From contig JAFQQJ010000019.1 in assembly GCA_017411325.1 (NCBI GenBank), forward strand, positions 62,001 through 126,000: a DNA stretch of 64,000 nt, in the 5' to 3' direction. This document shows, piece by piece, positions 30,653 through 34,015 of the stretch. This DNA is from Clostridia bacterium (lineage in GTDB: Bacteria; Bacillota; Clostridia; CAKSNL01; HGM11501). The number at the start of each line of letters is the position of its first letter. The stretch's first letter is position 1. Made by a program: the position numbers and the translations under genes. The notes under the pieces are model-generated. The model had not been told where the DNA came from. It did not search any database and saw only the letters and a list, made by a program, of their open reading frames with translations.

Positions 30653-31525
30653 TTATATATCAAGCCTTGATTTTATCGTTCTTATATAATCCGACGGAGA
30701 AATATTTTCCGTTTTCTTGAAAAGTCTGCTGAAATAATGGGGAGAAGAAAAGCGGAGTATGGATGCAATTTCGGATAAATTATAGTTCCCCTCTCTCATA
30801 AGTTTTTTCGCTTCCTTTATTTTTAGTGCATTGATATATCCTATCACCGTATCACCCGTTGCCTTCCGGAACATACTGCAAAGGGTAGTTTTATTTGTCC
30901 CGAAGATGAAACAAAGCTCGGACAAAGTGATTTTTTCCCTGAAGTTTTCCTTTAAATAGTTGCATATTTCAGACAGGCTGCGGTCACTCATTTCATTTTC
31001 AGGAGATAGTTTTTCCGCCTCTGATGAACGTACAAGCTCAATTAAAAACGTTTCAAGCTTCAATTTTATCATCTGGTCTGCGCCGAATGGGTAATCCTTC
31101 TTTTTTTTCATATCCCGAAGATTCGGGATATCGTAAGGTCCTTCAAAAACCGTTCTGCCCTCTCTTATGATTTCCGTTAAAATTTTCTGCAGAGCAGGGG
31201 TTAAATTAAGCGCACTTCCGGAAAACACATCAAGCTTTTTATCTTCGCACTCAAACCCGATAATAATCACATTCGGAGCTGTGTTATTGATGCACCGGAG
31301 CGAATGAATCTCCCCTGTTTTATGTATTATCATCATACCTTCTTTAAGTATTCCCTTATAGTTTTCTGCTTCTACAGAAATCTCTCCGTTATCAACATAA
31401 ACAAGCTCTCTGAAGGCATGACTGTCTTTTGTAGTATGATATTCTTTTGTAAATTCAAAATAATGAATGTTGGCAATTCTGCTCACCGTAATTGCCATCT
31501 TAAATTCCTTAAGCTTAAAATCCAT
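30653..31525 (-). CDS. AraC-family regulator divergent from the creatinase-like operon
   Basis: The 290-residue protein has an N-terminal cupin-like sensing domain (about residues 10-150: HYFEF, GEISVEAENY, IIHKTGEIHSL) and two C-terminal helix-turn-helix motifs (about 190-290), ending in the AraC signature ASILRFSSPHYFSRLFKKTENISPSDY. ATG 31525 is chosen by spacing from GGGTGATG. It is divergent from the operon at 31693 and most likely activates it in response to a small organic molecule. Confidence 0.9.
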   Translation of the reverse strand: MDFKLKEFKMAITVSRIANIHYFEFTKEYHTTKDSHAFRELVYVDNGEISVEAENYKGILKEGMMIIHKTGEIHSLRCINNTAPNVIIIGFECEDKKLDVFSGSALNLTPALQKILTEIIREGRTVFEGPYDIPNLRDMKKKKDYPFGADQMIKLKLETFLIELVRSSEAEKLSPENEMSDRSLSEICNYLKENFREKITLSELCFIFGTNKTTLCSMFRKATGDTVIGYINALKIKEAKKLMREGNYNLSEIASILRFSSPHYFSRLFKKTENISPSDYIRTIKSRLDI

Positions 31526-31544
31526 AATATCATCACCCACATAA

Positions 31545-31572
31545 ATTTTAGCATTTTTACCCGTTTTGTCAA
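31545..31572 (-). promoter_or_regulatory. promoter of the AraC regulator
   Basis: Minus-strand perfect -35 TTGACA (31567-31572), 16 bases, -10 TAAAAT (31545-31550). Confidence 0.6.
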
Positions 31573-31657
31573 CAGAAAATTTATTCTATATTAATTTTAT
31601 TTAATATTGTGCAAAATGTTTTTAACATTATCCAAATACAAACAGCAAAACTTTCTG

Positions 31658-31663
31658 TATAAT
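31658..31663 (+). promoter_or_regulatory. -10 box of the creatinase-like operon, weak -35
   Basis: A perfect TATAAT sits 29 bases before the M24 gene, but no good -35 is at the right distance. That is typical of promoters needing an activator such as AraC. Confidence 0.45.
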
Positions 31664-31692
31664 GAACTAAAGTTATAAAGGAGGTTTTTTAT

Positions 31693-32865
31693 ATGTCTAG
31701 AATTTGTATCCCCGACTATGAATACAAGGAGAGAATTGCAAAAGCCGCAAAAATGGTGGCTGACAAAGGGCTGGATGTCATGGTTGTATGCTCAACTGAG
31801 TCCGACTATGCCAACGCCAGATATTTTTCGGGTTTCTGGCCCTTATTCGAAAGAGCAGGCGTTGCCATCGCCGCTAACGGAGATGCAGCATTAATGGTGG
31901 GCCCGGAGTGTATTATCTTTGCAAAGGACGTTGCGAAGATGAACAAAATTTTCTGTCTCCGGGAATTCCGTGAGTCTGCCGATCCATCATATCCCGAGCT
32001 TCAGGCAAGTACATTCCGTGACGTTTTTTCGGCAATCGGCGTAAAGGGCGAAAACATAAAAATCGGATTAGGAAGCTATGTCGAATGCACTCTTCCCATC
32101 TTTGAAGGGCTTAAAGAAAGCTTTCCGAAGGCTGAAATTTTAAAGTGCAACGATATTATGGTTAATCTTCGTAAAATCAAAAGCGAAAACGAGCTTTCAT
32201 GCATAAAGGAAGGCTTCAGAATCATCGACCTTGCAACAAGCGAAGTAATAAGAAATCTTCGTCCGGGCGTTACCGAGCTTCAGATGGTGGGCATCGCACA
32301 GAAGGTAATTTACGAAGAAGGTGCAGAATACGAAGGTCTGCCCATGTATGTATTCAGCGAAAAATCCACAAGTCACGCCATAAGCCGTTCCGGCTACCGA
32401 GAAATAAATAAGGGAGATATTGTTCAGCTTAACCTGTCTGCAAAAATTGACGGTTATTCTCCCTCTATAGGTCTTCCTGTGGTTATGGGAAAACTGGAAG
32501 GCGAGCGAAAAAGAGTTGTAAAGTTCTGTTTAGATGCACATAACTGGACAGTTGACCGCCTTAAAGCAGGTGTTATGGCAAGCTCCATTGCAAAAGATTT
32601 CTATAAGATGTATGTTGACAACGGCTTTAAGGAAAACTTCGTTTACGGTCCTTGCCACGGCACAGGTATGATTGAAGTTGAAGCACCCTGGATGGAAACA
32701 ATTTCAGACTATCCCTTAGAGGAAAATATGACCTTCCAGGTAGACACCTTTATTTCAGGTGACGGCTTTGGCGTACGTTGGGAAAAGGGCGTTGCAATAA
32801 CCAAAGCAGGCTGTACTTCAATGACCAATTATCTCAACCGAGGAATAATTGAGCTTGACTTTTAA
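31693..32865 (+). CDS. M24-fold (pita-bread) protein, creatinase-like
   Basis: The 390-residue protein has the two-domain architecture and length of creatinase and Xaa-Pro aminopeptidases: N-terminal domain to about 150, pita-bread domain to the end. The five metal ligands of M24 peptidases (D, D, H, E, E) appear as N (VQLNLSA), S (GYSPSIG), H (PCHGTG), D (FQVDTF) and E (VRWEKG). With most ligands lost it is probably not a metallopeptidase. Creatinase is the known metal-free member, and a creatininase-family gene lies two genes downstream. The strong AAAGGAGG site marks ATG 31693. Confidence 0.8.
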   Translation: MSRICIPDYEYKERIAKAAKMVADKGLDVMVVCSTESDYANARYFSGFWPLFERAGVAIAANGDAALMVGPECIIFAKDVAKMNKIFCLREFRESADPSYPELQASTFRDVFSAIGVKGENIKIGLGSYVECTLPIFEGLKESFPKAEILKCNDIMVNLRKIKSENELSCIKEGFRIIDLATSEVIRNLRPGVTELQMVGIAQKVIYEEGAEYEGLPMYVFSEKSTSHAISRSGYREINKGDIVQLNLSAKIDGYSPSIGLPVVMGKLEGERKRVVKFCLDAHNWTVDRLKAGVMASSIAKDFYKMYVDNGFKENFVYGPCHGTGMIEVEAPWMETISDYPLEENMTFQVDTFISGDGFGVRWEKGVAITKAGCTSMTNYLNRGIIELDF

Positions 32866-32876
32866 GGAGGGATAAT

Positions 32877-33242
32877 ATGACTGTCGGTAAAAAGGAATGG
32901 ATAATCCCGGATTGCGAGCTTCCACCCGAAGGCGAAGGGGAATTAAAAGGGCATGAATCTGTAATCATAGTAAATGATTCAGAGATTGATGCTACTATTT
33001 CCGTTAAGCTTTTCTTCACTGACCGTGATGCATACGAGAACATCTGCTGGGCTGTTGAAAAGAACAGGGTAAGATGCTTTCGTATGAACAATCTTTCCGA
33101 TATGTGCGGTTATTCCATCCCCAAAGAAACACAGTACGCTATGAAATTTTCAAGCAATACGCCAATAGTTGTGCAGTACGGAAGACTTGATAACCGCCAG
33201 GTTAACCTTGCCTACTATACCACTTTGGGCTATGCCGAATAA
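32877..33242 (+). CDS. sensory rhodopsin transducer-like protein (ASRT family)
   Basis: The 121-residue protein matches the Anabaena sensory rhodopsin transducer family (PF07100): GKKEWIIPDCELPP at the start, ISVKLFFTDRDAYE, IPKETQYAMKFSSNTPIVVQYGRLDNRQVNLAYYTTLGYAE at the end. The family is a small beta-sandwich tetramer. In Anabaena it relays light from a rhodopsin, but most homologs, like this one, have no rhodopsin nearby and may bind sugars or other small ligands. It sits between the creatinase-like and creatininase-like genes with good ribosome sites. Confidence 0.85.
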   Translation: MTVGKKEWIIPDCELPPEGEGELKGHESVIIVNDSEIDATISVKLFFTDRDAYENICWAVEKNRVRCFRMNNLSDMCGYSIPKETQYAMKFSSNTPIVVQYGRLDNRQVNLAYYTTLGYAE

Positions 33243-33252
33243 GGAGGATATT

Positions 33253-33987
33253 ATGGACCTTAATTTCAGTTTTCCAAAAGAACTCGCAAGGGTAAAGGAT
33301 GAGAAAATTCCTGTTGTTTTATGTGGCGGAACGGTGGAATATCACGGAACCCACTGTTCTTTCGGATGCGACTCTTTAATTGCCGAAGGACTTATTAAAA
33401 AACTTTCAGAAAAAAAAGAAATTATGATTTATCCCACGGTTTATTACAGCCCTTCAAGCTATGCCGTTGCCGACGAAACCAGCGGAACGGTACACATTGA
33501 AGAGGATGTCTTTGAAGCCTACCTTTTCGGGATATTTAAAAATATGCTTTATGCAGGGCTTCGTAACATTTATGTTGTAATTCACCACCAGTTTGAATCC
33601 GAAAGCCTTATGCCGATGACGCTATCCTATATGAAGGCGGCAAAGCGTGCCACAATGCGCTATCTGGAGGAAACACTTGGCAAAGGCTGGTGGGGCGGCG
33701 AAAGCTTTTCAGACTACTATGACAATCTCGGCGGAGGCGATGACCCGTTTTCCTGGATAAAGGTAATTCCCACAATGAGCACAGAAGTTCAGAAAGCAAC
33801 CGGCTATGATCATGCCGGAAAATATGAATGTTCTATTTTAATGGCATTATACCCTGACGCCGTAAAAAAAGAACGCCTCGGAGACATTACCCACTGGTTT
33901 GCCGAAAGTGCAAAGGACGCCTCCGTTGAATTGGGTAAAGAAATGATTGAAAAATCCCTCATATATCTGGAAGAAAAGATAAAATAA
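33253..33987 (+). CDS. creatininase-family amidohydrolase
   Basis: The 244-residue protein belongs to the creatininase family of metal-dependent amidohydrolases (cyclic amides, formamides, mycofactocin). Family motifs are VLCGGTVEYHGTHCSFGCDS (about residues 19-38, keeping the Glu, His and Asp metal ligands), VVIHHQFES and DHAGKYECSILM. The true substrate is unknown. ATG 33253 has AAGGAGG. It ends the three-gene operon and a terminator follows. Confidence 0.88.
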   Translation: MDLNFSFPKELARVKDEKIPVVLCGGTVEYHGTHCSFGCDSLIAEGLIKKLSEKKEIMIYPTVYYSPSSYAVADETSGTVHIEEDVFEAYLFGIFKNMLYAGLRNIYVVIHHQFESESLMPMTLSYMKAAKRATMRYLEETLGKGWWGGESFSDYYDNLGGGDDPFSWIKVIPTMSTEVQKATGYDHAGKYECSILMALYPDAVKKERLGDITHWFAESAKDASVELGKEMIEKSLIYLEEKIK

Positions 33988-33988
33988 A

Positions 33989-34015
33989 AAACAGCAGGCG
34001 TTGCCTGCTGTTTTT
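33989..34015 (+). terminator. terminator of the creatinase-like operon
   Basis: Stem AAACAGCAGGC / GCCTGCTGTTT with a 3-base loop and a T run. It is also placed to end the convergent ireB transcript. Confidence 0.85.

Follow-up and report, generated by a model that had tools for sequence, protein, structure and literature searches.

A conserved AraC-linked operon of gut Clostridia combines a metal-free M24 protein, an ASRT-family protein and a creatininase-family hydrolase and may serve glycan catabolism

A three-gene operon lies within a 64,000-nucleotide stretch of a Clostridia bacterium genome (assembly GCA_017411325.1, contig JAFQQJ010000019.1, positions 62,001 to 126,000), referred to here as the window. 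All three genes are on the + strand and encode, in order, a 390-amino-acid (aa) protein of the M24 (creatinase/prolidase) fold (31693-32865; Peptidase_M24 E 1.2e-24, plus Creatinase_N), a 121-aa protein of the sensory rhodopsin transducer family ASRT, of the type with a GHExxI motif (32877-33242; PF07100 E 1.8e-31), and a 244-aa creatininase-family hydrolase, here called CRN (33253-33987; PF02633 E 4.6e-26). A divergent gene on the - strand (30653-31525, with an ATG start) encodes an AraC-family regulator of 290 aa (Pfam HTH_18 E 1.8e-16). The operon genes are tightly packed, with gaps of 11 bases between M24 and ASRT and 10 bases between ASRT and CRN and a strong Shine-Dalgarno site in each, as an earlier sequence-only reading of this DNA had described. 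For CRN, the mechanical open reading frame begins at 33169 and overlaps ASRT; the true start is likely the ATG at 33253, which sits behind AAGGAGG. Because an intrinsic terminator with a perfect 13-bp stem hairpin (33987-34015, + strand) stands after the CRN stop codon, the operon ends there and comprises exactly three genes. The genome holds one ASRT gene, and it gave no match to bacteriorhodopsin-type genes (PF01036) in a search that had no positive control and so supports their absence only weakly.

The sequence-only reading had named a search for the same gene neighbourhood in other genomes as one of its checks. A scan of GTDB genomes with an M24 alignment found 269 relatives, and the loci analysed here are the best 80 of these, at 75-99% identity; all are from uncultured Clostridia, mostly of herbivore guts, and represent species-level genomes. 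Beside the M24 gene (80/80), CRN is found in 72 of the 80 loci, ASRT in 68 and AraC, mostly divergent, in 61, so that the gene order recurs in most loci and ASRT travels with both enzyme families. Of the 68 loci with ASRT, 27 have overlapping M24 and ASRT frames and 58 have the two at most 17 bp apart, while ASRT and CRN are separated by 30 bp or less in 43 of 59. In a reciprocal search with CRN, 17 of 21 places adjoined the M24 gene. Among 291 sampled Clostridia genomes, 19 have both CRN and an M24 of at least 58% identity, 3 have M24 alone, 1 has CRN alone, and 268 have neither (Fisher p 1e-25, for genomes that share ancestry and are not independent); the correlation between M24 and CRN pairwise distances is r 0.79. 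Outside the class Clostridia, a phylum-wide sample yielded a single genome with even a 38-40% M24, and plasmid searches with M24 and ASRT gave no cassette outside Clostridia. Close kinship alone was considered as the cause of this conservation and rejected, given the range of M24 identity across the 80 species-level genomes; it is also insufficient because M24 groups as divergent as 25-27% identity have a GHE-type ASRT next to them too. In a group with a 38%-identity M24, the M24 gene stands beside phosphotriesterase-like genes and a 266-aa family (L103:5376-6176, with relatives in L104, L106, L107, L110 and L057), for which searches of Pfam and PDB gave no match.

Phylogenetic footprinting of the regions upstream of the cassettes revealed a 17-bp direct repeat, TTTA(A/C)NATTNTGCAAA, in 63 of 81 regions and in none of the shuffled sequences. 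The repeat period is 21 bp in 61 of the 63, and in 51 a -10 box is placed 37 bp downstream of where the second repeat begins. The window copy (31600-31637, + strand) consists of a distal half-site TTTAATATTGTGCAAAA (31600-31616) and a proximal half-site TTTAACATTATCCAAAT (31621-31637) that adjoins the -35 region, with the -10 element TATAAT at 31658-31663, 37 bp from the start of the second half-site. The AraC gene would be transcribed from a sigma-70-like promoter on the - strand (31545-31572, TTGACA-16-TAAAAT), assigned by consensus match only. Most of the cassettes without the operator have M24 placed behind another gene. In several loci with M24 further down the operon, the operator stands instead ahead of a DUF4432 gene at the head of the operon (L118, L124, L154, L159) or ahead of a GH3 gene upstream on the same strand (L143, L144). 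The predicted operator shares with AraC-type class II sites, such as AraC I1-I2, the 17-bp direct repeats with a 21-bp period and the proximal repeat abutting the -35 region, although its sequence differs; the footprint thus bears out the activator-type promoter, divergent from AraC, that had been proposed for this locus.

The operator also marks genes elsewhere. In the 2.9-Mb genome of the window, a scan allowing up to 3 mismatches finds the pattern at two sites only and its reversed control at none; the second site lies 83 bp upstream of a gene for an 899-aa protein (L197:7360-10059, G000:C36). This protein is 51% identical to one encoded beside CRN in another genome, and its family of ~700-900 aa (members include L059:2906-5608 and L185:5928-8066) stands next to the cassette at 12 of the 80 loci. 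The family is without a match in Pfam or NCBIfam, and searches with its ~712-aa form, PDB included, yielded nothing significant; a weak match to a GH20 N-terminal profile (E 0.0038) is a lead towards a GH20-like family. Near-perfect copies are also present in other genomes, ahead of the gene for a GH16-SLH surface protein in G054, of a DUF4432 gene in G130 and of a GHL6 glycosidase gene in G288. The operator thus connects the three genes with glycan digestion without any appeal to which genes lie side by side. The neighbours agree: 100 co-directional operon neighbours include DUF4432 (17), Gfo/Idh/MocA (4), GH20, GH38 and melibiase (3 each), and GH3, DUF4838, a sialate-esterase family and Antibiotic_NAT (2 each), with PL8, GH28-like, GH31, GH1 and rhamnosidase genes each added by single loci. 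The 84 genes taken as controls, all more than 5.5 kb distant, have no glycosidase family in their top 25.

The M24 protein belongs to its family by profile (PF00557, 87.7 bits against a cut-off of 23), and its AlphaFold2 (AF2) model (pLDDT 83, with loop 323-336 poorly predicted) matches prolidases, creatinase and ectoine hydrolase, with a Foldseek E of 5e-26 to 2zsg. An alignment of the metal ligands, the other check named in the sequence-only reading, upheld its reading of a damaged metal site: the prolidase ligands D, D, H, E and E correspond to N247, S258, H322, D351 and E364, so both Asp ligands are lost while H322, D351 and E364 are kept, and the full ligand set of the metallopeptidases is absent. 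N247, H322, D351 and E364 are invariant in alignments of 17 and of 43 homologues, while S258 is replaced by Ala in some; the divergent M24 groups that adjoin ASRT have likewise lost both Asp ligands and kept the H, D and E. The pocket residues H228, H283, H322, E328, E330, E335, D351, R362 and E364 are invariant in the 43 homologues; Arg54 is invariant too. The M24 protein most likely operates without the M24 metal centre, and the invariance of H228, H283, E328, E330, E335, R362 and Arg54 argues for an active site rather than decay.

A different scenario is that the M24 protein is catalytically dead and forms, together with ASRT, a sugar sensor or a regulator of CRN. We consider this very unlikely, since the invariant polar pocket (H228, H283, E328, E330, E335, D351, R362, E364) fits an active site, and since creatinase is an example of an M24 fold that functions without metal. 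In its favour, both Asp ligands are lost in every ASRT-linked M24 subfamily, and ASRT proteins are predicted, in a 2009 analysis, to act through protein-protein contact (PMC2739507).

Among the known metal-free relatives, creatinase (creatine amidinohydrolase; 1chm, 7yto) resembles the M24 protein in fold (Foldseek TMq 0.76-0.81), length and metal-free lineage, in having N at the first Asp position, and in its His324 and Arg64, which align with H322 and the invariant Arg54. In creatinase, His232 is catalytic, Glu262 and Glu358 bind the guanidinium group, and Arg64 binds the substrate carboxylate. The full set is not found in the M24 alignment: the Glu262 position is Gly260, His232 is offset by two residues from the conserved H228 and does not align with it, and the Glu358 position is D351. 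Identity is ~18-19%, and the partner gene and the genomic setting are different. A plain creatinase mechanism was rejected on the grounds of the lost Glu262 and the unaligned His232. Ectoine hydrolase (DoeA/EutD; 6twk, 6yo9) has the same fold (E ~1e-19) and is a second relevant comparison, because EutD uses the M24 fold to open a ring and works together with, and ahead of, a second hydrolase, EutE (PMC8739950). Identity to it is 17%, however, the M24 protein scores 38.4 and 37.0 bits against the cut-offs of 613 and 575 of the ectoine-hydrolase NCBIfam equivalogs, and ectoine genes are not near the window operon. The M24 protein therefore probably has a mechanism of its own, as far as the alignments indicate.

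CRN is likewise a clear member of its fold family (PF02633, 92.1 bits against a cut-off of 31.3), and its AF2 model (pLDDT 90) matches creatininase in Foldseek with E 1.2e-11. The Glu, His and Asp of the first motif, which had been read from the window sequence as kept, are indeed E29, H31 and D40 across 42 homologues, with H31 and D40 invariant and E29 above 90%. This E-x-H...D motif and the PF02633 fold are shared with creatininase (1j2t, 3a6g) and with the 3-dehydro-scyllo-inosose hydrolase IolN. Of the creatininase binuclear site (Glu34, His36, Asp45, His120, Glu122), E29, H31, D40 and E115 correspond in CRN, and the His120 position is Q113 if read gapless or H112 if shifted by one residue. 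In the second half, however, CRN has a nearly invariant HHQFE where creatininase has NGHYE, and it scores far below the NCBIfam equivalog cut-offs for creatininase (EC 3.5.2.10; 50.2/235 bits), IolN (42/245) and MftE (39/172). Judged by these motifs and scores, CRN is a separate subfamily of PF02633. Two aberrant copies were noted, both in loci without ASRT: a divergent and probably decayed CRN (L186:9276-9989, 42% identity) that has lost the first-motif Glu and HHQFE, and a CRN gene with an in-frame TAA (L099:10199-10930, G013), which is either a degrading copy or an assembly error.

These comparisons bear on the pathway proposed in the sequence-only reading, in which the creatininase homologue opens a cyclic amide of the creatinine or hydantoin kind and its product is then cleaved by the M24 homologue. 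In its favour, creatinine degradation pairs enzymes of these two folds, the invariant Arg54 of M24 aligns with creatinase Arg64, and CRN, when read gapless, retains four of the five ligand positions of creatininase. Nevertheless, we regard this chemistry as quite improbable. The two creatinase positions discussed above, Glu262 (Gly260) and His232 (not aligned with H228), speak against it, as do the 50 bits of CRN against the 235 of the creatininase equivalog, and the 25 commonest neighbour families include glycosidases and lack genes for urea, sarcosine, methylguanidine, purines or pyrimidines. What stands of the earlier proposal is a conserved and uncharacterised AraC-controlled operon with a metal-free M24; cyclic-amide opening found no specific support, because of Gly260, the unaligned His232, the low equivalog scores, and a regulon and neighbours made up of glycosidases and sugar enzymes. 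It is possible that a ring-opening hydrolase is involved after all, with a glycan-derived sugar as its substrate.

The third protein, ASRT, falls into one of two types. The window protein is a full-length member of PF07100 (109 bits against a cut-off of 25) with the signature residues W8, H26, E27 and N33 of the ASRT/ASRAH family, as in Anabaena ASRT (2ii7) and Thermotoga TM1070 (1nc7); invariant residues include D12, H26, E27, R103 and D105. The 2009 analysis gives the family signature as SHExhChhN, describes TM1070 as small, soluble and oligomeric, with a ligand in its pocket that the Cys contacts, and predicts from the gene context of other operons that ASRT binds sugars; its main text says nothing of M24 or creatininase neighbourhoods (PMC2739507). 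In the window ASRT the position of the ligand-contacting Cys is I30, and it is I, M, L or V in every M24-linked member. Unlike the SHExxC type, which is adjacent to M24 in no sampled case, ASRT with GHExx[I/M/L/V]xxN forms a separate, M24-tied clade (support 0.99): of its 44 sampled members, 36 stand directly beside a metal-free M24 and another 2 have an M24 nearby. In divergent metal-free M24-ASRT pairs, CRN's place is taken by a phosphotriesterase-like gene (L061, L063) or an M81/MlrC-like gene (L064, L066, L067, L068), and the third gene position is possibly an exchangeable slot for metallohydrolases.

It might be proposed that the GHE-type ASRT is itself an enzyme, e.g., a sugar mutarotase or a lactonase whose step falls between those of the two hydrolases, in the manner of RhaM or FucU in isomerase-kinase-aldolase operons. 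The invariant D12, H26, E27, R103 and D105, the position of the gene inside catabolic operons and the soluble, ligand-filled TM1070 (PMC2739507) would fit such a role. The signature Cys of the pocket is lost in this type, however, and many of these operons already contain a DUF4432 gene. DUF4432 is a member of an aldose-epimerase-type clan, and we know of no catalytic activity for any ASRT. An enzymatic ASRT is accordingly rather improbable in our estimation.

Single loci with an additional gene inside the cassette were also seen. A GH28-like gene lies between M24 and CRN, where ASRT would stand, in L154:9160-10308 and L159:9191-10306. A gene of the aminoglycoside 3-N-acetyltransferase family (Antibiotic_NAT) lies between ASRT and CRN in L058:976-1773 and L157:6726-7532, a hint of an amino-sugar substrate and not of resistance. 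The latter insertion also counts for a scenario in which M24 cleaves the C-N bond of glycopeptides or of glycosylated or Amadori amino acids after trimming by glycosidases, and CRN takes the amide product. M24 relatives cut C-N bonds beside a carboxylate, Arg54 is invariant, and hexosaminidase-type neighbours (GH20, NagZ-like GH3) are present. This scenario is nonetheless unlikely: the metal ligands that M24 peptidases require are lost, and the commonest neighbour families do not include glycosylasparaginase, a deglycase or a peptide transporter.

The explanation we favour, with middling confidence, is that the operon belongs, as one arm, to a glycan-catabolism regulon that AraC activates in gut Clostridia, and that it contributes a hydrolase step on a glycan sugar in which ASRT partners M24. 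A sugar intermediate would cause AraC to bind the direct repeat beside the -35 region and turn on the cytoplasmic trio, and in other genomes the same operator would bring glycosidase and sugar-enzyme genes under this control. CRN would act as a divalent-metal hydrolase that opens a lactone, a lactam or an oxidised carbocycle ring of a glycan-derived sugar, and M24 as an active metal-free hydrolase of the same or the next intermediate. ASRT, made together with M24 from overlapping or abutting reading frames, would be its dedicated sugar-binding partner, whether as a subunit, an allosteric sensor or a substrate presenter. Amino- or acid-sugar compounds are plausible substrates, as a lead only, because of the hexosaminidase-type neighbours and an Arg54 of the carboxylate-binding type.

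Several observations weigh against this explanation. The window operon itself includes neither a transporter gene nor a glycosidase gene, and the second operator site in its genome is weak, with 3 mismatches and only TTAAAC as a -10 element. ASRT is missing from 12 of the 80 loci and CRN from 8 (some of them at contig ends), and the system may thus be able to do without either one. The glycosidases near the cassette are mixed (GH3, GH20, GH38, GH31, GH1, PL8, melibiase, rhamnosidase), for which reason no single class of glycan or substrate could be picked. Finally, the sugar-ring chemistry is drawn by analogy with IolN.

All parts of the system come from known families; a search of open-licence papers found no report of the M24, ASRT and creatininase gene combination, and neither the regulon nor the ASRT subfamily was found in the literature searched. 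The findings point to a metal-free M24 group beyond creatinase and ectoine hydrolase, and to a glycosidase-like family of ~700-900 aa without annotation in herbivore-gut Clostridia. Outside the cyanobacteria, ASRT is an orphan whose nearest functional story is light sensing, with sugar binding predicted in 2009. The link of a distinct ASRT subfamily to a single enzyme family and a single glycan regulon, together with the operator sequence, makes the partner, the ligand and the inducer directly testable. We tentatively suggest, as a possibility that falls well short of probable, that the GHE-type ASRT and the metal-free M24 together make up a two-protein enzyme for sugar catabolism, not described before, in which ASRT is the subunit that binds the sugar, and that a third slot is exchangeable among metallohydrolases. 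If true, this would be the first enzymatic role for ASRT and would explain its presence in bacteria that have no rhodopsin.

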